Shown: positions 8,874-35,747 of the stretch, one piece after another
How positions within the stretch are numbered: position 1 is the first letter of the stretch
How the letters are laid out: every line of letters starts with the position of its first letter
DNA from: Hepatocystis sp. ex Piliocolobus tephrosceles
Taxonomy: Eukaryota > Apicomplexa > Aconoidasida > Haemosporida > Plasmodiidae
Reading direction: 5' to 3'
Length of the DNA stretch: 52,571 bases
NCBI GenBank assembly: GCA_902459845.2
Contig: CABPSV020000014.1
Span: 1,958 to 54,528, forward strand
The notes under the pieces: model-generated
The model's input: only the letters and a program-made list of their open reading frames with translations
Databases searched by the model: none
What the model was told of the DNA's origin: nothing
Program-made: the position numbers and the translations under genes

Positions 8874-10619
8874 ATGAAAAAACTATTTATTTTGTTCGAA
8901 TGTGCGGCTGGGTACTTTCTATTAAAAGTGGAAGAATGGGAACAAATAGCCAATAACGACTCCCTTGAAAAAAAATTAATAAATTCTAGTTCATTTCAGC
9001 AGTGTGTTAAATTTTGTGCGTTTGTATCATTTGATACAGCGGAACGAGCACTTGATAATATAAACAGTTTAAACGAAGGTAAGCTAACTGATTTTTTATT
9101 AAATTTTTTAGAATTACATTTACCAAGTGACAAAAGTGAGTATGAATTAGGTGTAGCAGATTTAAACTTAGGTAAAAATTTATCTACTATAGGTTTTAAT
9201 GTTGTACATAATAATAACATTTTAGAATTGTTTCGAGCATGTAGACAGTTTTATTTAAATAAAATATCAACATACGTAAATAATGAAGATATAAATATAA
9301 AAAATTTTAATATTGGATTAGGTCATAGTTATTCCAGAAGTAAATTAAAATTAGATCCCAAAAAACAAGACAAATCTATTATTAATAGTATAGCCACAAT
9401 TGAATCCTTAGATAAAAATATTAACGTTTTTAGTATGAGAGTAGTAGAATGGTATAGTTGGCATTTTCCTGAATTAAAAAATATTGTTACTGATGTTATA
9501 AAGTATTGTAAATTAGTTCAATTAATTGGTATTAAAGATAAATTTGATTTTGATTTGAATAAAGATAAAATAACAGAAATTACAGAAGATGAAGAAATTA
9601 CAGAAAAAATTCAAAAAGTGTCTAATTTATCAGTTGGACAAGAATTATCAAATGAAGATTTAAGTAATATTGTTAATTTTTCAAATGAAATTATTAGTTT
9701 ATATAATACTAGAACATTATTATGGAATTATATGGATAATAAATTGAATATACTTGCACCAAATTTAAAAGAACTTGTTGGTAATAGATTAACTTCTAGA
9801 TTAATTAGTCATGCAGGTTCTCTTTTAAATTTAGCAAAAAGTCCATGTAGTAGTATTCAAATATTTGGTGCTGAAAAGGCTTTATTTAATTCGTTAAAAG
9901 GTAATAAAAGAACACCAAAGTTTGGTATTATATATAACTCTTCTTATATTTCTAAAGTACCACCGAAATTAAAAGGAAAAATGTCAAGATATCTTTCCAG
10001 CAAAATTTCAATAGTTACAAGGATAGATACATTTTCTGAAAATCCAACAAATAATTATGGTGTTGTATTAAAAAAACAATTAGAAGATAAAATATTGCAT
10101 ATGATCAAGGGAGTAAAACTTTCTAAAAATATTGATTATATAAACACTGCTGAGCAATTATATAATGACACTATTGAGCGAACCAGACAGGAGTTGGGTG
10201 ATGAACAAGGCAAAACTGATAAAAAAAAAAAAAATAAAAATAAAAATAAAAATAAAAAGCATAAAAAGGACAAGACTAAAATGGACATGAATAAAAATGA
10301 AGAAGTTGAAGTTGAAAATAAGAACGAAGTTGAAAATAAGAACGAAGTTGAAAATGAAGATAAAGAAGAAAATGAAGATGATGAAGAAGAAGAAAATGAA
10401 GATGATGAAAAAGAAGAAAATAAAGATGAAAATGAAAATGAAGAAGAAAATGAAAATGAAAATGAGGAAGAAAATGAAAATGAAGAAGAAAATGAAAATG
10501 AAAATGAAGAAGAAAATGAAAATGAAAATGAAGAAGAAAATGAAGATGATGAAGAAAATGAAGACGAAGAAGAAAGCGAAGAAGAAAATGAGGAAACAGA
10601 TGAAGATGAAGACAACTAA
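8874..10619 (+). CDS. NOP56: Nucleolar protein 56 (box C/D snoRNP core)
   Basis: Single exon, 581 residues. NOP56 with NOP58, fibrillarin and the 15.5K protein forms the box C/D snoRNP that guides rRNA 2'-O-methylation and pre-rRNA processing in the nucleolus. The N-terminal NOP5NT domain starts MKKLFILFECAAGYFLL. GLGHSYSRSKLK (about 148-159), FSMRVVEWYSWHFPEL, and the Nop domain with CSSIQIFGAEKALF (about 323) and ISRVP-like YISKVPPKLKGKMSRYL follow human NOP56 almost block by block. SRIDTFSE-type sequence favours NOP56 over NOP58. The tail from about 440 is a Lys/Asn block, then an acidic Glu/Asn array, longer than but equivalent to the KKE/D tail of other NOP56 proteins. The ATG is the only sensible start. 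Confidence 0.97.
   Translation: MKKLFILFECAAGYFLLKVEEWEQIANNDSLEKKLINSSSFQQCVKFCAFVSFDTAERALDNINSLNEGKLTDFLLNFLELHLPSDKSEYELGVADLNLGKNLSTIGFNVVHNNNILELFRACRQFYLNKISTYVNNEDINIKNFNIGLGHSYSRSKLKLDPKKQDKSIINSIATIESLDKNINVFSMRVVEWYSWHFPELKNIVTDVIKYCKLVQLIGIKDKFDFDLNKDKITEITEDEEITEKIQKVSNLSVGQELSNEDLSNIVNFSNEIISLYNTRTLLWNYMDNKLNILAPNLKELVGNRLTSRLISHAGSLLNLAKSPCSSIQIFGAEKALFNSLKGNKRTPKFGIIYNSSYISKVPPKLKGKMSRYLSSKISIVTRIDTFSENPTNNYGVVLKKQLEDKILHMIKGVKLSKNIDYINTAEQLYNDTIERTRQELGDEQGKTDKKKKNKNKNKNKKHKKDKTKMDMNKNEEVEVENKNEVENKNEVENEDKEENEDDEEEENEDDEKEENKDENENEEENENENEEENENEEENENENEEENENENEEENEDDEENEDEEESEEENEETDEDEDN
10300..10612 (+). repeat. Glu/Asn codon repeat in the NOP56 tail
   Basis: Imperfect GAA-AAT-GAA units encode (ENE/EEN)n. 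The poly-Phe and poly-Ser ORFs opposite it are shadows. Confidence 0.9.
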
Positions 10620-10637
10620 AAATAAAAAGAAGAAAAT

Positions 10638-10670
<33 letters not shown>

Positions 10671-10737
10671 CATGTCAGAAAAGTTACATAATAAGGGCAA
10701 AGAATTTAGTAACGGAAAAATCTGTTATTTTGAAAAG

Positions 10738-10754
10738 TTATGACCTGGTCATAA
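10738..10754. other. Palindrome TTATGACC-T-GGTCATAA
   Basis: Perfect 8-bp arms around a single T, 119 bp after the NOP56 stop. The ATGACC/GGTCAT core makes it stand out from A/T-only surroundings. The one-base spacer fits a dimeric protein site better than an RNA hairpin. Confidence 0.6.
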
Positions 10755-11083
10755 AAAAAAAAATGTTAACAATAAAAAAAAAAAACAACTTAATGATTAG
10801 TGATGAAGTTTATTGACAATGAGGATAGCTATATTAATACAATTTAAAATTTTTATACATACATGCATATGTTTTATGTATACATACATATGTTTTCTAT
10901 ATGTGAGTTATTTTTAATCAAGTGAAAAATCTTTAAATTTTTTTCTGTTACATCTTTGTAATTTTTTTTTTTTTTTTCTTCTTTTTCTTTTTTTATGTGA
11001 TAAACATTTTGGTACAATTTGCACATAGGCGGATTGTTTAAAAAAAACAATTATCATAATGGTTAAATAAATAAATAAATAAA

Positions 11084-11124
<41 letters not shown>

Positions 11125-11287
11125 ATATGTATGTATATAAAAGTAAAAAAAAAAAAAAAATAAAACTAATATACATATATATGTGCATACATAGTGCCAA
11201 GAAAAAAAAGGTGTACTAACAAAAAGAAGCATAAAATGAAAAGAAATAAAATATAAGATATATATAAGAAATAAATAAAAAGTAAAT

Positions 11288-11472
11288 AAGATATGAATAA
11301 GTTATAAATAAGTTATAAATAAGTTATAAATAAGTTATAAATAAGTTATAAATAAGTTATAAATAAGTTATAAAAAAGTTATAAAAAAGTTATAAATAAG
11401 TTATAAGTAAGTTATAAGTAAGTTATAAGTAAGTTATAAGTAAGTTATAAGTAAGTTATAAGTTATAAATAA
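11288..11472. repeat. 11-bp minisatellite (ATAAGTTATAA)
   Basis: About 16 copies shade from AAATAAGTTAT to AAGTAAGTTAT to the right. It lies between NOP56 and MYST. Confidence 0.93.
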
Positions 11473-11695
11473 AATGTTAATGAAATAGTGATGCGGTTTT
11501 AGGTGTCAAATTATAAAACCTTTTTTACATGTAGAAGTACACATAAACATATCCAAACGTAAGTTCATGTTGGTATGATAAATTTATCACTTTTTTTTAA
11601 CCATGCAAATATATATGCAAATATATATGTATATATATATATATGTGCAGGTGGCTAATCGGAGTATAAAACTTGTTATTGTCAATATAAGAGAC

Positions 11696-11740
11696 AAAAA
11701 AAAAAAAAAAAAAAATTTTTTTTTTTTTTTTTTTTTTTTT
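11696..11740. repeat. A20-T25 head-to-head homopolymers
   Basis: A run of 20 A joins directly to 25 T, flanked by GAC and (after AAT) GTC. It could fold as a hairpin of at least 20 A-T pairs in MYST 3' UTR RNA or extrude as a cruciform. Confidence 0.85.
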
Positions 11741-11793
11741 AATGTCTTTTTTTTTTTTTAGATATATCTGCTTGTATAAGTGTTTACACGAAC

Positions 11794-11836
<43 letters not shown>

Positions 11837-11840
11837 TACA

Positions 11841-14042
11841 TCACTCATATAAAGCTAAATGGTAATCATAAGATACCCAATGCAATTTACTCTTACATAA
11901 GTCATAATGCTTTTGGTTAAGTTTACTAAGTACAAATTCCATTTGTTTAGGATTAATATAATAAATAATATCTCCATTTGGTGCAGTTTTAAAAATGTCT
12001 TTTTCTTCTAAACACGTTAAAATATCATTAATTTCGATACTAGTTATTTCTGATAATTCTTGTACTGATATTTGATTATAATTTAACAAAACTTTGAGTA
12101 ATGTTTCATACCAGTAAGCCATATATGAAGCAACTCCTAAATCTGATAATGGTCTTTCTGGTGTACCTGTTCTTTTTTCTGTTTGGGATAAAAAATAACT
12201 AAAATTTATTAAAAATTTTCCATAACCTTTCTTTTGATGTTGTGGTAAAGTAAGTATACATGATACATTATTTTTGGAATATTTTTCTTTTGAAAAATAA
12301 CCAGTTATATGATATCCATATTCATCTATTTCTGTTATAACATAAAATAAAAATAAATTTACTCGATGTTTTAATGTTTTATGATCTAAAAATAATTTTG
12401 ATAAAAAACATAAATTTTCACAATATATACGAAAATAGTTCCCATCAATTTCGAATATTGAATTTCTTTCATTTCGATATATTTCATTTCCTGGTGGATG
12501 TCTAATTTCACATCTTCGTATATGTCGTATTAATTCTTTTTCTACTTTAAAAAAACATAAGCAAAATTCACAAATATATAAAACATCTACATTTTGGTAT
12601 TCTTTTGGATAAGGAGAAAAATACCATGTATCTACTAAGTAAGAACCAAACCGAATTTGATTAATAGTTTTTAGTTTTGTATTCTCTTCATGTTCTTTTA
12701 AATATTCTTTATCTATTCCTAAATGTTCTTGATCTGATCCATTTTTTTCCATATTTTTTATAATTGGATATCCATCATCAGGATAACTATCTAATAACCT
12801 TAACTGTTCATATGATAACCAACAATCTAATCGCCTGTCAAAACTTTCCCAATGAACATAATAGTCATAATCACTTGCTTGCATAGTTAAATTGGTTGTG
12901 TTTATTTCTTGATTAACTTTATTTTGTATATCATTTTTATATGTGTTTAATGAATAAAATAAAGGTAACTCTTTTTTTGAATTTTTTTTTTTAGGTCTTG
13001 CATATACAACAGAACAATAACGCCAAACTTTATTCAATGGGTCTAATCCCCATAATACTTGTTTTACTGGTATCGCGTTAGGAAATATTAATGCATAAGA
13101 ATCATTAAATTTTGTTGATAAATTTATTGATTTACCAATACTCCGAGCCTTACTCAGACTACCTTTTGTATTTTTACTGCTACTGTTATGTGTATTATGA
13201 CTATTACCAACACTGCTATTATTATATCCTTTTTCTTTATTCTTTGATGAACCAGTTCCTTTTGTTATTATTTTATTGCTTCCTTTGGGAGTAGAAGTAG
13301 TACTATGAATCAATAAGGGAGGGGTCGAACCACTAGCAGCAGTAGCAGTAGCGGTTGTAGTAGCACCACTAGCACCATTAGTAGTAATAACATTTGTATC
13401 TTTCTTGGGGTCACTCACAGTATCTATCGACATTCTATTTTCTATTATTACGTTTGTAGCATTTCCATTGTTGGCTACTGTAGTTCCATTAGAGAATGTT
13501 GCATCAGTTATATTTATGGATTTTTCATCATTTATATTTATGGATTTTTCATCATTTATATTTATGGATTTTTCATCATTTATATTTATGGATTTTTCAT
13601 CATTTATATTTATGGTTTTTCCATTATTTATATTTATGGCTTTTTCATCATTTATATTTATGGCTTTTTCATCAGTTACATTTGTGGTTTTTGCATCAGT
13701 TACATTTAAGAATGTGGCAATAATTGCACTTGTGGTTACTGTAGTTGTTCCATTTGTGGCTACTGTAGCTGTTTCATGTTTGGCTGTCGTAACAGTTACA
13801 GCTGTAGGTGTTGTTAAGTCTGTTGGTGTTGTTCCTGTCACTTGTGTAGCTATTACTGTCGAACCTGTCGAAGTTACGTTTGTAACACAATTAATGGAGG
13901 CAATCCTTTCACTTAATCTTGTTACTACTCCTTTCGTCACTCGTGTTTTACAACTATTATTAACATTAACACTACCCTTTACACTTTTACTTATCCCTGT
14001 TCCTTTATTCACATGTAAACTCTCATGCTTGCTGGCACCCAT
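11841..14042 (-). CDS. MYST: MYST-family histone acetyltransferase
   Basis: Single exon, 733 residues. MYST enzymes transfer acetyl from acetyl-CoA to histone lysines, mainly H4, in the nucleus. Order of domains: a Thr/Val-rich low-complexity N-terminus with NINDEKS repeats (about 110-180); a chromo-barrel (about 325-411, WGLDPLNKVWRYCSVVYARP and YVHWESFDRRLDCWL); a C2HC zinc finger (ICEFC...HIRRC, about 487-510); and the acetyltransferase core with catalytic Cys in VSCILTLP (about 590), acetyl-CoA loop QKKGYGKFL (about 600) and catalytic Glu in TPERPLSDLG (about 627). The autoacetylated Lys position (DHKTLKHR) is present. The frame extends 40 codons upstream through a (TA)n tract; I start at ATG 14042 (MGASKHES) because the extension is repeat-derived. 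P. falciparum MYST is reported to have long and short forms; internal Met codons could allow that here. Confidence 0.96.
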   Translation of the reverse strand: MGASKHESLHVNKGTGISKSVKGSVNVNNSCKTRVTKGVVTRLSERIASINCVTNVTSTGSTVIATQVTGTTPTDLTTPTAVTVTTAKHETATVATNGTTTVTTSAIIATFLNVTDAKTTNVTDEKAININDEKAININNGKTININDEKSININDEKSININDEKSININDEKSINITDATFSNGTTVANNGNATNVIIENRMSIDTVSDPKKDTNVITTNGASGATTTATATAASGSTPPLLIHSTTSTPKGSNKIITKGTGSSKNKEKGYNNSSVGNSHNTHNSSSKNTKGSLSKARSIGKSINLSTKFNDSYALIFPNAIPVKQVLWGLDPLNKVWRYCSVVYARPKKKNSKKELPLFYSLNTYKNDIQNKVNQEINTTNLTMQASDYDYYVHWESFDRRLDCWLSYEQLRLLDSYPDDGYPIIKNMEKNGSDQEHLGIDKEYLKEHEENTKLKTINQIRFGSYLVDTWYFSPYPKEYQNVDVLYICEFCLCFFKVEKELIRHIRRCEIRHPPGNEIYRNERNSIFEIDGNYFRIYCENLCFLSKLFLDHKTLKHRVNLFLFYVITEIDEYGYHITGYFSKEKYSKNNVSCILTLPQHQKKGYGKFLINFSYFLSQTEKRTGTPERPLSDLGVASYMAYWYETLLKVLLNYNQISVQELSEITSIEINDILTCLEEKDIFKTAPNGDIIYYINPKQMEFVLSKLNQKHYDLCKSKLHWVSYDYHLALYE
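13511..13700 (-). repeat. 21-bp coding minisatellite in MYST
   Basis: About nine units encode NINDEKS/NINDEKA variants in the disordered N-terminus before the chromo-barrel. The unit length preserves the frame. Confidence 0.92.
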
Positions 14043-25833: not shown

Positions 25834-26975
25834 ATGAGGAATAAATGTAACATAGATGAAAAAAAAAAAAACAGAATAAGTAAATATAAGGTGGGGGAGA
25901 AACCAAAGATATACCACACCTTAGTATTTTACTACTACCTTTTGTACATGCATAACCACGTATATATATCGTCCACAGGCGCACAAAAAAAGATTACCAC
26001 TACGTTAATTGGAGCATTTGTCAAATTTTTCAAAAAAAACGTTTTAGTTATTTTTTGGCCTAATGTTATATTCCCAAAATTGATTATATCTTTATTAAAA
26101 ATTTCCTTATTTTGGTCACACAAAATAATAATATGTGGTAAAACAAAAATCATATGTGCGTTAATCTGTTTTTTTATTAAACAGACTTGTATATTTTCTT
26201 TGTTTAATATTTTAATTATTTTTGATACAAAATTTTCTTCATTTTCTGTTTTTTTTTTTGTTTCATAAGGATTAATAGTTGTTTGTAAATTGTTTTTTTT
26301 TATTTCAGATTCAAAAGTAACTTTTTTTTCTAACTCGTAATTAATTTTTTTTTCTACCCTTTTTGGTATTTCAATGATAGAACATGTTATAATTGATTCA
26401 TATTTTTGTGGTACTTTTGAATATATAATAACATTTACAATTTGTTTTTCTTTCGATTTTAAAATAAAATTAGACGGTTCAAATTTTATTTTTATTTCTT
26501 TATCTTTCAACATATTTTTATAAGATAACTTAACAAGGCCATTTAATTGGCCATCATTTTTTAATAAAATTTCTTTTTTATTTTTTTGTTTTATAACCAT
26601 TTCATTAAAATTTATCGTACTTGGTACAACCACATCAGATTTTATAGGAGTAGCAATTATTTTTATAGGAATTTTCTCATTTTTATATTTATCATCTACT
26701 ATTACTATATTTAACGTTTCATTAATCGTTTGATTATCATGTAAAGGGTTTAAAAAACTTATTACATAACTTTTGTTTAAACCTGGACTAATATTTTCTA
26801 TATCTTGTAATGGGTATGTAAAATATGTACTACTTTGATATAAAAAACGAAATCTTATAATATATTTTGTAGTATTTTTTATATGTAACCTTTTTATCAA
26901 TTTTACCCCTCCTTCATAATTAGTAAACTCAATTAACGGAGGAAACTCAAGACCATACATTCGTGAATTTTCCAT
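18563..26975 (-). CDS. 20-exon ASH/MSP-domain protein, CFAP47/HYDIN-like (axonemal candidate)
   Basis: Exons (high to low): 26975-25998, 25783-25098, 24952-24764, 24608-24276, 24096-23898, 23694-23152, 22952-22868, 22679-22530, 22398-22392, 22243-22124, 21910-21658, 21459-21202, 20932-20684, 20505-20273, 20080-19962, 19825-19646, 19531-19389, 19224-19164, 19040-18810, 18675-18563. They total 5130 nt, 1709 residues, with every junction GT-AG and phase-compatible and a final TAG. The product is a chain of beta-sandwich segments of the ASH/MSP kind: N-terminal LEFPPLIEFTNYEGG, NISPGLNKSYVISFLNP, then ILLKNDGQLNGLVKLSY and IKFEPSNFILKSKEKQ; later KNISFLNIIEEEYSYAIVKF and FNTSRKGVFLYRFF. Such chains occur in HYDIN, CFAP47, CFAP65 and CFAP221 of the flagellar central apparatus. 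Plasmodium builds flagella only in male gametes, so gametocyte expression is expected. Assignment to a specific CFAP is not possible by eye. The least certain splice sites are the donor GTTATA after 19962 and the acceptor before 19040. Confidence 0.78.
21060..21190. repeat. Intronic T-rich minisatellite (CTTTTATTTTTTTATC type)
   Basis: About eight units of 16 bp lie inside the intron between exons 12 and 13 of the ASH-domain gene. The poly-Phe ORFs are shadows. Confidence 0.85.
22036..22110. repeat. Intronic ATATAATATGTAAT repeats
   Basis: Short palindromic A/T units with TGTAAT punctuation in the intron between exons 10 and 11 of the ASH-domain gene. Confidence 0.8.
22392..22398 (-). other. 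7-nt micro-exon (exon 9) of the ASH-domain gene
   Basis: The minus-strand sequence is AATATAG, between a strong acceptor (T-tract, then CTCAG) and a GTACAA donor. The preceding exon ends in phase 1 (GCAG/GTAAG) and the next begins in phase 2 (TTGCAG/A). Direct joining breaks the frame; inserting 7 nt restores it and gives VMIAEYRHTVDIILKV, which reads as one beta-domain edge. Confidence 0.65.
22778..22860. repeat. Intronic 18-bp minisatellite (AAACAAATGACTTTTTAT)
   Basis: Five copies, the last two with small changes, in the intron between exons 7 and 8 of the ASH-domain gene, ending about 8 bp from the exon 7 donor. Confidence 0.9.
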
Positions 26976-28367: not shown

Positions 28368-31300
28368 TCATTCCTCAATCGATTGCGGAAATATGGAAAA
28401 ATAAATATCCCTTTTGTGCGCTTCAGTTTGTTCTGTTATGTAAGGTAACGTTTTGTTCAGTTTCAAAGTATATTCAGTATTTCCTTTAGTTAATAAACTT
28501 AAACACTGTGAGTAGGCTTGTAAAGTAGTGCACCAATTTTGAATAATACTATCAATAGATATTCCTGCTTTTTTTAGTAAAGCTTCTAAATTCATTATAA
28601 TAGCATTTACATCAGCATCAGCATTGGTATCATCATCACCATCATAATAGCTATAATCATAATCGTAAACATTATTTTGTGTTAAATTAATTAAAAATGG
28701 ATTTTGTTTTTCTATTTGTGTTATATTCTTCAATAAATTTTTATTTAGTTCCTTTTTATTATTCGAGTTTTGTGTCAATCTTTTATTAAATTTTGTAGTA
28801 ACTGCATTTAAATCATCAATATGCACATTAATTGCATTTTTATCTTTTAAAGTAAATGATACATTATTATTTTTTATTTCAATTTTATCAATAAATATAT
28901 TATTACTTAAAGTTGCAATAAAATCAGGAGTAGTTCCATTACTCATTAAATTATATGTACCTAACCATTTTTTTGTTAATGTTATTTTAGGTGTATGTTT
29001 TTTTAAAGTTTCAACTACATCATACGCATAATCATATCTTATTGTATGTGCTTTGGGTAACTCTTCTGCAAGTACATTATAATAATCTAAAATTTGATTT
29101 ATTAAAATATCTTTTATTTTTATATTAATTCCACTTACATCAATTATAAATAACAATTTTCTTGGTTTTGATAAATCAATATTTTTAAAATTATTATTTT
29201 TAACGTTTTTATATTCTCTTATTTCTGATCTTCCTAAAAATGTAAATATTACTTCACCATCATCAGTTATTTCAAATATTCCTTGTTTTGTGTTCATTTT
29301 CACTTTTTTAATTTCAAGTGTGTTTACAATTTTTTGTAGTCGTTTTTTTTTGTTCTCAAAGGATTGGTAATTATAACATGAGTTATTACTGTTATTGCTC
29401 TTATTAGTATTTGTTTCGTTGTAGTTATAACTGTTGACACTACTACTACTACTATCGATACTATAACCAGTTCCCTGATTGTTTATACTACCATAATATT
29501 TCTTATTATTATTATTAGTATCCATCATAAATGTTATATCACTTTTTACCAATTCAGGTGTAATATTCATATTTTTAATTTTATCACCATTATTATCACC
29601 ATTATTATTATATAAATCTTTATATGTTTTGTTCAAAGTAACATTTTTATTTTTATAATTCCAATCCATATCTACATTACTTACACGTTTGTTATTATTC
29701 AAATTATATTCATTTAACATGTCATTGATACTGTTTCTTTGTTTATTTCTTATAGTGGGATCACAAGGTTGTCCGACATTATAACTGGCAATATTACCGA
29801 CCATACTACCGGCAATACTACCGACCATACTACCGGCAATACTACCAACCATACTACCGGCAATACTATCTACAACACTACCAGAATCACTACAACCACT
29901 ATTATTGTTGTTACTACTAATACTATTAGTAGGAAAATTACTCATATTATTATGATCATTACTATCACTTGTAAGGTTTATATCATTTTCTCCTCGTAAG
30001 AATTCGTTTTTACTGATTATATCCATTGTTGTTATCCCCCCACGTATATTTTCCTTCGATGTAAAAACGATTTGTTCATCATCCGAACGTATACTATTTG
30101 TTATACTTACCCTTTCCTTTTGTTTATTTCTAATTTCTTTATTTCGTGATGAATATAATGATTCAGATAAAACAGAATCAGCAGGTGTTGGTACAGGAAT
30201 AGGTTCATCAAATTCTTCACTAAAACTATCAAATACAGAATTAATCATTTTAGGTTGTTGTTGTTCTAATTCTTCATCATTATATGTATTCAAATTACCT
30301 GAAAAATGTTTGTTCTTAAAATTATGTACCGATGAGAACATATTTTGATTTTCTTCTATATTATTATTTGAACTGTTTTGAAATGCATCAGTACTGCTTT
30401 CACTAACAGCACTACTTTGACTCAAATCGTTAATATATAATTTTTCTATTCTTGTTTTATTATTTTTAACAATTTCTTTGACATATATTTTGTCATTTTT
30501 ATTTCTATACTCATTATTTTTTGACATAGTTTCATTATCATACGATTCTGAACAATTTAAACTGTTACTCAAACTATTATTCAAACTGCTATTTATTTTT
30601 TTATTTTTTTGCACTTGTTCATTTGATTGTTCATTTGATTGTTCATTTGTTTGTTCATTTGTTTGTTCATTTGTTTGTTCATTTTTTAATGATTGAGCAT
30701 TTAAAATATCATGTTGAAATTTGTTAATAACATTAAAACCATCATTTCTATTTAAAAATATATTATTTGTATTAATGTCACTTTCTCTTTTTATATTATT
30801 ATAAAAGTAACTTTTTTCTTCTAATTTGTTCGAATTTTCATTATTATTTATATTTATGTTTGTAAAGTAAGTTAAGCCATAATTCATTTGGTGGTTATTG
30901 CTAACACCAATACCACTGCTACCAATACTGTCATTCTTATTATTACTATTAGTAGTAATAGTGGTAGTATTAGTAGTAATAGCGGTAGTATTAGTAGTAG
31001 TGTTAGAATCATAATGTATATTAAGATTGTTCTCAAATTTTTTTGTTATTAAATAAGAGGTTTTAAATCCATTTTCTTCTTCTCCCCTTTTTCCAACATT
31101 ATCAAATTTGTCCGATTTTTTTTTTAATAAATTTAATTTATTAGTTAGGTCTAAACGTGTGTGACATGCGTGATCACTCGGTTCGTCTCTCGATTGGTCA
31201 CTTTCAAGGTCATACAAACTTAAACCATCTGGTTGTTGTTTATTTTTTGTATAACTAGTATTTTCATCTATTCTTGAATCTGTATCTTTTTTGTACATAT

Positions 31301-33790
31301 GCTCATATCTATCTTCACTTTCTTCATTTTCTTCATTTTTTTCATTTATTTTATCTTCTCTATATGTATTGCTACCTCTGTAACTGTATTTATTACAAAT
31401 TTTATTATCATTATTTACATTTATTTTTTTTTTATTTATTAACTCTTTTTCTATGGTTAGCTCTTTATACCTATCCCCACTACAATCACTTTCTTCAGGT
31501 ACAACAGACGAACTATCCAAATGATCATATTGGTCTCCGGAATCTGCATTAAAAGAAAAATATATATTACTAATGTGGTTACTATTATTTTGGTAGTTGT
31601 TACTATCGCTGCTTTTATTATTGCTGCTTTTACTATTGCTGCTTTTACTATTGCTGCTTTTACTATTGCTGCTTTTACTGTTGCGTGAGTTATACTGTAT
31701 GCCTTTTTTATTATTATCATTAATACTGTATTTTTTTTTTTTTTCTTTTTTTAAAAAACTAGTATCCCCATTTTTGTTCATAGAATCTTTATAACTATTG
31801 GTATAATTTACATCATAAATTTTTTTTTCTTTTATCAATTTTTTTTTGTTACTAAATAAATGATTATGTAACTGTTTCTTTTTTACATTATGTAAAGGAT
31901 AATTATCATTCTTTAGGTTATTTGCATATATATCATTTATATAACTTTTATCCTTTAGTTTTTTATCACTCAATTTTTTTAATGATTTTAAATTATACTG
32001 ATGACTACTACTAATACTGCCACTATCACTACAACTACTACTGTTACTACGATGAATACTTTTTTTTTTTTTATAACTATCTGCTTTTTGTTTATGACTA
32101 CCTGCTTTTATTTTATAACTATCTGCTTTTATTTTATGACTATCTGCTTTTATTTTATGACTACCTGCTTTTATTTTATAACTATCTGCTTTTTTTTTAT
32201 AACTATCTGCTATTTGTTTATGATTATCTGCTTTTTTTTTATAACTACCTACTTTTATATCATTACATACTTTACTATTTTTTTTTGACTCACGTATTTT
32301 TATTTTAGATGATTTAATATTCATTATATTATCAGAACTACTACTTTTGTTATATATTTTTTTATTACTTTTATGAATTAAACTAAAGTTTAGTTCGTTT
32401 TTTATTTTATCAGAAGAATGATAACACGACCGATTGCTGGGAATAGTAGCTAATGTATTTATATATTTTAATTTATGTTTTGAATTTTTTTTATTTAATA
32501 ATTTTGATTGAGACATAATGTCACAAAGTTTGCTTCTGTGTTTTAAACCGCGTTTACCACTACTACTGCCATTACCACTACCACTACTACTGCCATTACC
32601 ACTACCACTACTACTGCCACTACCACTATTACTACTATATCGTGCTACTTCTAAACTTGCAATGTTTGCTTGTTTTTCAAAATCATTATCGTGGTTATTG
32701 TTACTATCTGTAGATGCAGTTATAGAGAATTCGTCACTACCACTTTCAGACTGTGGTAAAGAAGAAAATGTATCTGATTTATTTAAAACAGATTCTTTAA
32801 TATCTTCTAATGGATTATGACTAACTGTTTTAACTGCTTCATTGGCATAATGACTAAGATTATAATTATTAACCTGTTTAATATAATATTTATAATCTGT
32901 TAATGTTTTATTATTAATACTGTTTATACATTTTATATACTCATTTAAACTATCTTTTGATATATTTATTAACAATTCTTTATATTTTTTTAAATGTTTA
33001 ATATATGAATTACTCAAATAAGATTCAAATCCATGCATAAAATAGTGGTCTTTATTATAAACATATTTATCATTAACATTATTATAATCAATATCACTAC
33101 TATATGTATTATATTTTTTTATATTATTACATATACTAAAATCAGGTAAATTAATGTATTTGTGTTCAGATGGATATATAATACTACTATTATGAATAGT
33201 GTTTAATTTTTTTAATTTTTCTTTTCTTTTATCATATATTATATCATTTTGTTCGTGTTCATTTTTATGTACATATTTTTGTGCACGAAGGTCGTTTTTA
33301 ACATTATAATTTTTTAAATTACGATTTTTATTATTGCTATTACTATTACATAATATGTCACTATTTAAGTGTTTATTATAATCTATAGTAGTTGTTGTAT
33401 ACATTTTTATTTTATTATTTACATTATGTACATTATTTACATTACTTTCCAATATATTATTATTAGTACTATTACTATTAAAGTTGTTTTTCCAATTACT
33501 ACTACAGTTGTTAAACTTATTGCCACTGATACGATGGGTATGCCTATAATAATTACTAGTATTATTGTCAATTAAATTGTCTACATTTACTATGTGTTTA
33601 TTTTCTGTTATACTATTATTTACATTACTTTTAATATCATTATTTTTATTTTCTTTTTTGCATTTAAAGATACTAAAATTGTTAACTAATCTGTTTTTTT
33701 TTTTATAATTTAATCTACCTGCTATTTTTGGTATGATGCTTTTTTCTTCAGTAGGTTCCGAGAAAAAACTAACATAATCATTATTACTGC

Positions 33791-33824
<34 letters not shown>

Positions 33825-35153
33825 ATTGTTACTGTTGTTGTTTTTGTTGTTGTCATTATTACTGCTGTTGTTATTATTATTACTATTAACATTATTACTA
33901 ATTCCATCATTACTACTTTCATTATCGTTATCGTCGTCAGTGGTATCAACATCATCACAGTAAAAAGATAACCCTTCTAACTTTTCATAAAGTATTCGGT
34001 TTGATATATACTCACAACTGCCATCCTTTTTGTTCCCATCATCTTTGTTATCATCGTTATTATTGTTGTAATTATTACTACTACTTTTCCCATTTTTGTT
34101 TGTGCAATTTTTTTCATCCACGTTATTTGACAAGTCCTTACTACTATAAGTTCGACTAGCAGAATTCAAAAATGAAATGTCTGGTACTTTAAGCGGTTTA
34201 GTTTTAAATAGACTACTATTACTATCTAATGTTATAAAACTTTTATAATCGTCTATATCATCATCATTCTCACTAAATATTGAATTATCCAAAGATATAT
34301 TATTTATTCGTGGTTGTATAATATCTTTACTACTATTTTCATAACAATAATAACTATTCTTATTATTAAATATTTTACCAGATATATTGTCATCATTTTT
34401 ATTTATATTATTATTACTATTATTATTACTATTATTGTTATTATTATTGTTGTAAATGTTTTTTTTTTTTTTTTTTTCTTTTTCTTCAAAACTATTTTTA
34501 TTAATGTCATTATTATAATATGTTTTTCTGTTGTCTATGCTATTATAATCTAAAATATTAGTTATACCTGAATAATCTCTTTCTGTTTCTTTTTTTTTAT
34601 AAACTATTTCATTTTTTTCATTCACATCCTCTTTTTCAAAATTAGAATCCAATTTATATAAAGATGTTTTTTTTTTTAAATCATAATTTTCAAAATTATC
34701 ACTACATAAACTTAAATTTAACGAATTATATTCTAAAAACATTTGTTTTATTTTATTTCTTCTATTTACAGCTTCTTCTAAATTTCTTTCTGTACAAGTC
34801 ATATCATCATTATTATAATTACTTATAAAATCATTATATGTTGTATTCCTACTTTTTGATAAATTGTTAATAAAAGACATAGATTCATGATTATTATTAT
34901 AAGTTTCAGTAGTAGCAGTAGTAATAGTATCACAACTTATTTTTTTTGTATTATATTCTTGTATATGTTTAGTATTATCTATATATGGTTTTTTATTTAT
35001 TATGTTTTGATTAACTAAATAATCGTTTTTATTGTTTTCATCTGTTTCTTCATTTTTTAATGCTGTATTTTCTTTATAAATTGGTGATACTTCATTATAC
35101 TTTTTTAAAATTTCATTCTCAATTTTTATATTGTCAATATTGAAATTTTGCAT
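28368..35153 (-). CDS. Giant low-complexity protein with C-terminal PLK4-type cryptic polo box, no kinase domain
   Basis: Single exon, 2261 residues from ATG 35153 (MQNFNIDN). The frame extends 42 codons upstream through a poly-Lys and (TA)-like leader that I treat as 5' UTR. Residues 1-1900 are Asn/Ser/Lys-rich with several tandem repeats (KADSYKI, SSNSK, NEQT, SIAGSMVG) and no ATP-binding or HRD/DFG kinase motifs. Residues about 1945-2225 are ordered and resemble the PB1-PB2 cassette of PLK4. A PB1 strand has KQGIFEITDDGEVIFTFL, then RKLLFIIDVSGINIKI. A helix follows (LPKAHTIRYDYAYDVVETLK). PB2 has HTPKITLTKKW, LMSNGTTPDF and SFTLKDKNAINV, and a closing helix has YSQCLSLLTKG. Human PLK4, from memory, shows the same order: ILDSEEVCVEL, ISSDGNTITI, SPKITYF, LMENSPGADF, SYTLKSESEVN. 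In PLK4 this cassette dimerises and binds centriole receptors. I infer a basal-body or spindle-plaque scaffold role. Confidence 0.85.
29779..29880 (-). repeat. 24-bp coding repeat (SIAGSMVG) in the polo-box gene
   Basis: Four units of SIAGSMVG, a hydrophobic small-residue repeat unlike the Asn/Lys arrays of the rest of the protein. Confidence 0.9.
30617..30685 (-). repeat. 12-bp coding repeat (NEQT/NEQS) in the polo-box gene
   Basis: Six NEQ(T/S) units in tandem. Confidence 0.9.
31600..31690 (-). repeat. Ser/Asn/Lys coding repeat (SSNSK) in the polo-box gene
   Basis: About six 15-bp units encode SSNSK/SSNNK. Poly-Leu and Ala-rich ORFs on other frames are shadows. Confidence 0.88.
32070..32250 (-). 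repeat. 21-bp coding minisatellite (KADSYKI) in the polo-box gene
   Basis: About eight units encode KADSYKI/KAGSHKI/KADSHKI, a very basic heptad. Its phase could form an extended charged helix. Confidence 0.92.
32555..32635 (-). repeat. Gly/Ser coding repeat in the polo-box gene
   Basis: Units encoding GSGNGSSS/GSGSSS. This is the most G+C-rich repeat of the gene (CCACTACTACTGCCATTAC on the plus strand). Confidence 0.88.
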
Positions 35154-35747
35154 TTTTTTTTTTTTTTTTTTTTTCTTTTTTTTATTACTCCTCCCTTCCT
35201 TGTTTACATATAAATTATTTTTTAATTGAAAAATGCTTATACATACATTAACACATGTAATATATATACAAACATACATATATTTCTTTTTTTTTACGTA
35301 ATATGTAGTATATAATATATATACATATGTTTATTTATATTTAAATTTAAAAATATAAAGTGTTTATACCCTCATTTATTTTTATTTTATTTTTCACTTT
35401 TTTTTTTTTTATGATTACCATTGTGAGGATGCAAAAAAAATACAGAAATTTTAAAATATTTCAGAATAAAAAAAAAACAAAAAAATGTAAAAATGTTAAA
35501 CATTATCACATGATTATTACTATTATTTTATCATTATCATTATTATCATTATTATCATTATTATTATTACTATTATTATTATTATATTATATTATATTAT
35601 ATTATATTATTTTTTTTTTATTTATAATATTACGTTTTTTTTATCATATTTTACATTTATAACTTTTAAAAAAATATCAGGAAAATAAAAAAAAAAAAAT
35701 TATCCTTTAATTATCTTACAATACATTTTTTTTCAATCATTTTTAAA

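Follow-up and report, generated by a model that had tools for sequence, protein, structure and literature searches.

Background

In animals, PLK4 is brought to the centriole by its cryptic polo box, a PB1-PB2 cassette that forms dimers and recognises acidic segments of Cep192 and Cep152. The initial annotation of the DNA described here took Plasmodium to lack polo-like kinases (PLKs), and the excerpts of four papers that address the point do state that Plasmodium or apicomplexan genomes lack PLK1 and PLK4, or PLKs generally (PMC8705618, PMC8789139, PMC3025120, PMC4743101). One of these excerpts relates an earlier suggestion that PLK-less lineages can duplicate their basal bodies with no kinase at all, or else rely on other kinases (PMC8789139), and in an excerpted kinome table one Sarcocystis kinase is assigned to SAK/Plk4 on the basis of its kinase domain. 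This raises the question of how Plasmodium, with no polo-like kinase, begins new basal bodies and divides its centriolar plaque. Here we examine a gene in a 52,571-nucleotide stretch of the Hepatocystis sp. ex Piliocolobus tephrosceles genome (contig CABPSV020000014.1; the whole stretch is called the window below), the product of which ends in a PLK4-like region and has no detected kinase domain.

Results

The gene occupies a single open frame on the minus strand (window 28368-35279), which encodes 2303 amino acids counted from the first ATG, or 2261 from Met43. Two rodent orthologues start MENF and MQNF and resemble this protein from Met43 on. The PLK4-like region consists of the C-terminal 315 residues (1989-2303; window 28371-29315, minus strand). 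It had been placed at 28400-29350 in the initial annotation, a range that covers the domain but misses approximately its last ten codons, and every motif quoted there was found (in the 2303-residue numbering, GIFEITDDGEVIFTFL at 2000, IIDVSGINIKI at 2045, TPKIT at 2096, LMSNG at 2111, FTLKDK at 2142 and IIQNWC at 2245).

To compare profiles we used HHalign, with 13 domains (from this protein and 12 Plasmodium orthologues) on one side and 17 PLK4 rows on the other. The two aligned collinearly, with 23% identity across 135 columns and a score of 48.0 (E 1.9e-6, probability 89.7). Because PLK4 had been named beforehand by the initial annotation, this match represents a single comparison and not the best of many. 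Controls in which columns were shuffled (n=400) had a mean score of 14.1, with a standard deviation of 2.65 and a maximum of 27.05; local shuffles (n=200) reached at most 27.02, and the reversed alignment scored 19.2. Background scores against PLK4 were 11.3-14.8 for nine other open reading frames (ORFs) of the window and 12.6 for residues 1-1977 of the same protein. The domain entered as one sequence still scored 47.6. Considered as segments, PB1 alone scored 23.3 and the linker with PB2 scored 42.7 (E 1.4e-6), and neither value was equalled in 150 shuffles. As judged from its sequence, the C-terminus is homologous to the PLK4 cryptic polo box (PB1-PB2), and we regard this as real homology.

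Ordinary sequence searches gave a fainter signal. When the PDB was searched by phmmer with the domain alone, the top seven matches were all PLK4 cryptic polo boxes, at sub-threshold E-values of 0.025-0.37; five of the seven alignments start at query residue 13 or 14 and end at 178, and two span 8-139. At E<=1, the Pfam family Plk4_PB1 matched 12 of the 13 domains (best E 0.0056) and Plk4_PB2 matched six (best E 0.028), and POLO_box (PF00659) was absent from the nine Pfam families that matched the domains at this level.

A number of results weigh against PLK4 homology. The full-length protein, searched by phmmer against the PDB, places PLK4 at E 0.42-0.56, under several low-complexity matches, and the 13-domain profile finds ribosomal protein S21 first (E 0.098), with PLK4 next at 0.16-0.71. 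The Plk4_PB1 match of this particular domain is sub-threshold (E 0.056), and MAAL_C, a family that we judge to be unrelated, matches 11 of the 13 domains with a better best E-value (3.8e-4). The tail that includes the closing helix scored 16.1 by HHalign, a value matched in 13 of 150 shuffles and so not significant alone. Finally, both structure models that we obtained are of low confidence, with a predicted local distance difference test (pLDDT) score of 36 for the model built from Plasmodium sequences only. Given the sub-threshold E-values and the MAAL_C match, the ordinary searches hint at PLK4 without proving it. One could argue from these same points, that every ordinary database match is sub-threshold and that a spurious family has the better Pfam E-value, for chance or for convergence of a conserved beta-rich domain; we consider this highly improbable, since no shuffle, global or local, exceeded 27.05 and nine other ORFs of the window stayed at background. 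The cassette claimed in the initial annotation thus holds for PB1 and for the linker with PB2, by HHalign and its shuffles, and its closing Cys-containing helix is not significant by sequence.

In Foldseek, the top ranks go to PLK4 cryptic polo boxes whether the query is the better model, which drew on PLK4 rows in its input, or the one made from Plasmodium sequences only. For the Plasmodium-only model, PLK4 takes ranks 1-7 and the divergent polo box of KKT3 (8a0k) appears at rank 24. That rank, together with the precedent of divergent polo boxes on kinetoplastid kinetochore proteins, as described in an excerpt of PMC6881465, would favour a protein of the kinetochore or spindle in which polo boxes are put to new use, as in those proteins, but the sequence matches and the Foldseek ranks set PLK4 above both KKT3 and PLK1, and we find this alternative distinctly improbable. 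Descent from an ancestral polo box that was PLK1-type or undifferentiated, with the likeness to PLK4 due to retention only, is also quite unlikely, since POLO_box matches none of the 13 domains, against 12 for Plk4_PB1, and Foldseek sets PLK4 before PLK1 for both models. According to the initial annotation, the fold should comprise a pair of six-stranded sheets, each of them packed on a helix; in the low-confidence model built with PLK4 rows this arrangement is predicted for PB2, whereas PB1 has five strands. The closing helix packs on PB2 only in that model, and its Cys and FP columns line up in the 17-row alignment. Altogether, the predicted structures agree weakly with polo-box homology.

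The layout of the cassette and the other features of the window are listed in Table 1. In the inter-box helix, L96, P97, Y104 and A107 are invariant in the 17-row alignment.

Table 1. Features of the polo-box gene and its neighbours, in window coordinates
Feature	Position	Strand	Remarks
Polo-box protein coding sequence	28371..35153	-	2261 aa, counted from Met43 (full ORF 2303 aa); kinase domain not detected
PB1-like polo box, residues 1989-2059	29103..29315	-	HHalign segment score 23.3; Plk4_PB1 in 12/13 domains at E<=1
Inter-box helix EELPKAHTIRYDYAYDVVETLKKH	28995..29066	-	Aligned to a PLK4 stretch by HHalign
PB2-like strands (TPKIT ... LMSNG ... DF ... FTLKDK)	28800..28994	-	Linker+PB2 HHalign score 42.7, E 1.4e-6
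Length-variable insert between PB2 strands and closing helix	28608..28799	-	No counterpart in the PLK4 rows of the alignments
C-terminal helices, including Cys-containing helix, and terminal YFSIFP stretch	28371..28607	-	Placed as PB2 closing helix in the model with PLK4 rows
Pro-rich arm motif PIPVPTPADSVLSES (short)	30159..30203	-	PTPA kept here and in 12/12 orthologues
Conserved arm block, residues 758-818	32826..33008	-	Helix-like by eye
Short tandem amino-acid repeats in the arm (KADSYKIK-type, SIAGSMVG-type)	32061..32252 and 29778..29870	-	
Adjoining ASH-type gene	about 18.5-27 kb	-	Apparently multi-exon; same strand as the polo-box gene
NOP56-like (Nop/NOP5NT) and MYST acetyltransferase genes	8874..14042		Adjoining pair

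The absence of a kinase domain, also noted in the initial annotation, was borne out by Pfam scans of this protein and five orthologues, which were negative, and by precomputed Pfam fields, which were empty for all 12 orthologues. Elsewhere in the genome the kinase profile found 52 matches, and none on this contig. There is likewise no PB3: the protein stops at the end of the cassette, and POLO_box is unmatched in 13/13 domains at E<=1. The protein is a carrier of a PLK4-type docking module and not a PLK4 kinase.

All 12 orthologues that we found are from Plasmodium and share 57-64% of the query region, and no relatives beyond Plasmodium were found in two sequence searches. The P. gallinaceum orthologue bears a truncated UniRef name as an FHA-domain protein; Pfam shows no FHA domain at E<=1.

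The genome that was searched comprises 12.4 Mb in 611 contigs, and the assembly is for that reason probably incomplete. It encodes a SAS-6 N-domain (E 2.7e-17), and the SAS-4 G-box (Tcp10_C) has a weak paired match in it, below the cut-off (E 0.05). A second, partial SAS-6 N-domain match lies at 9878-10018 of another contig (E 1.6e-8), perhaps a SAS6-like paralogue.

The N-terminal arm, of approximately 1940 residues, is long and mostly of low complexity. To call the cassette the only ordered part of the protein, as had been done, was an overstatement, as conservation is also seen at residues about 151-200, 751-850 and 1601-1700. The PTPA motif, of the type EF....S.PTPA.S, sits amid arm sequence that is otherwise poorly conserved. 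STIL/Ana2 bear Pro-rich motifs that bind SAS-4.

The adjoining gene on the same strand has an HYDIN/CFA65 ASH-type domain (PF22544, E 2.8e-8, in the ORF at 25935-26975) and is weakly similar, under the family cut-off, to Cep192 domain-5 (E 1.1e-4). Its sequence suggests a protein of the flagellum or basal body; gene adjacency in Plasmodium carries no weight for shared function. For the NOP56-like/MYST pair, the P. falciparum gene numbers that we take to be theirs disagreed with those of the genes on their right-hand side, so the order of the contig here may call for some caution.

Discussion

The reading that we favour, and hold to be probable, is that a PLK4-type cryptic polo box sits on a mostly disordered, kinase-less protein that serves as a docking or dimerising scaffold, most likely at a microtubule-organising centre. 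By analogy with the animal module, the parasite cassette would dock or dimerise by binding another protein, and once docked it would keep the long arm, itself furnished with conserved short motifs, at a single cellular site. This site would most likely be the microtubule-organising centre (the centriolar plaque or basal body), because the animal cassette acts there and the parasite keeps SAS-6. It is a guess that kinase activity might be supplied there in trans by a separate enzyme.

A more far-reaching account, which we offer tentatively and think somewhat doubtful, is that PLK4 was not wholly lost: its kinase part disappeared or gave way to another, but the box survives on a separate scaffold that still marks the site of the new basal body or centriolar plaque and recruits an unrelated kinase. 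If this were true, the PLK4-type cassette would predate animals and fungi. The finding in any case bears on when the cassette arose, and it supplies one concrete gene in which to study the missing centriole-copying machinery.

The scaffold might instead act elsewhere. We think it unlikely that the polo box serves for docking in the Kelch13 (cytostome/endocytic) compartment and plays no part at centrioles; we know of no endocytic polo box, which counts against it. An endocytic role is nevertheless a real rival to one at the microtubule-organising centre, because UniRef names the P. yoelii orthologue "Protein KIC10" (Kelch13-interaction candidate), and an excerpt of a review assigns KIC1-KIC10 to the K13 compartment; both points tell against the site that we prefer. 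The label comes from one source, however, and a search for KIC10 in PMC10718435, a later study of proteins of the K13 compartment, showed no occurrence. Were the protein not centriolar, a polo box would have been adopted by the Kelch13 compartment, with a bearing on haemoglobin uptake and the artemisinin response.

Polo-box homology in Plasmodium has likely gone unreported so far: among the open-licence papers listed in one library for polo boxes together with Plasmodium, Toxoplasma or Apicomplexa, most of them judged by title and abstract alone, none described this domain in either. The fold itself is ordinary, and what is surprising is the place where the polo box occurs.

Among known systems, the closest is PLK4/SAK of human and fly, with which the parasite cassette shares its order, its spacing and the signature residues TK, LP...Y.YA, TPK, LM.N and DF. 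It differs from PLK4/SAK in the insert that precedes the closing helix, in the long N-terminal arm of the protein, and in that no PB3 is present and no kinase domain was detected. Of the basic residues in the human PLK4 domain, several have non-basic counterparts in the parasite while others are conserved (by approximate numbering), and the binding partners may therefore differ from the human ones. The PLK1-type polo-box domain (PLK1, Cdc5) is more distant, as its Pfam family is unmatched here and its Foldseek rank is lower. The polo box of kinetoplastid KKT3 belongs to another phylum and another organelle, and what it shares with our case is the precedent of polo boxes on kinetochore proteins, KKT2 and KKT20 also carrying divergent ones.
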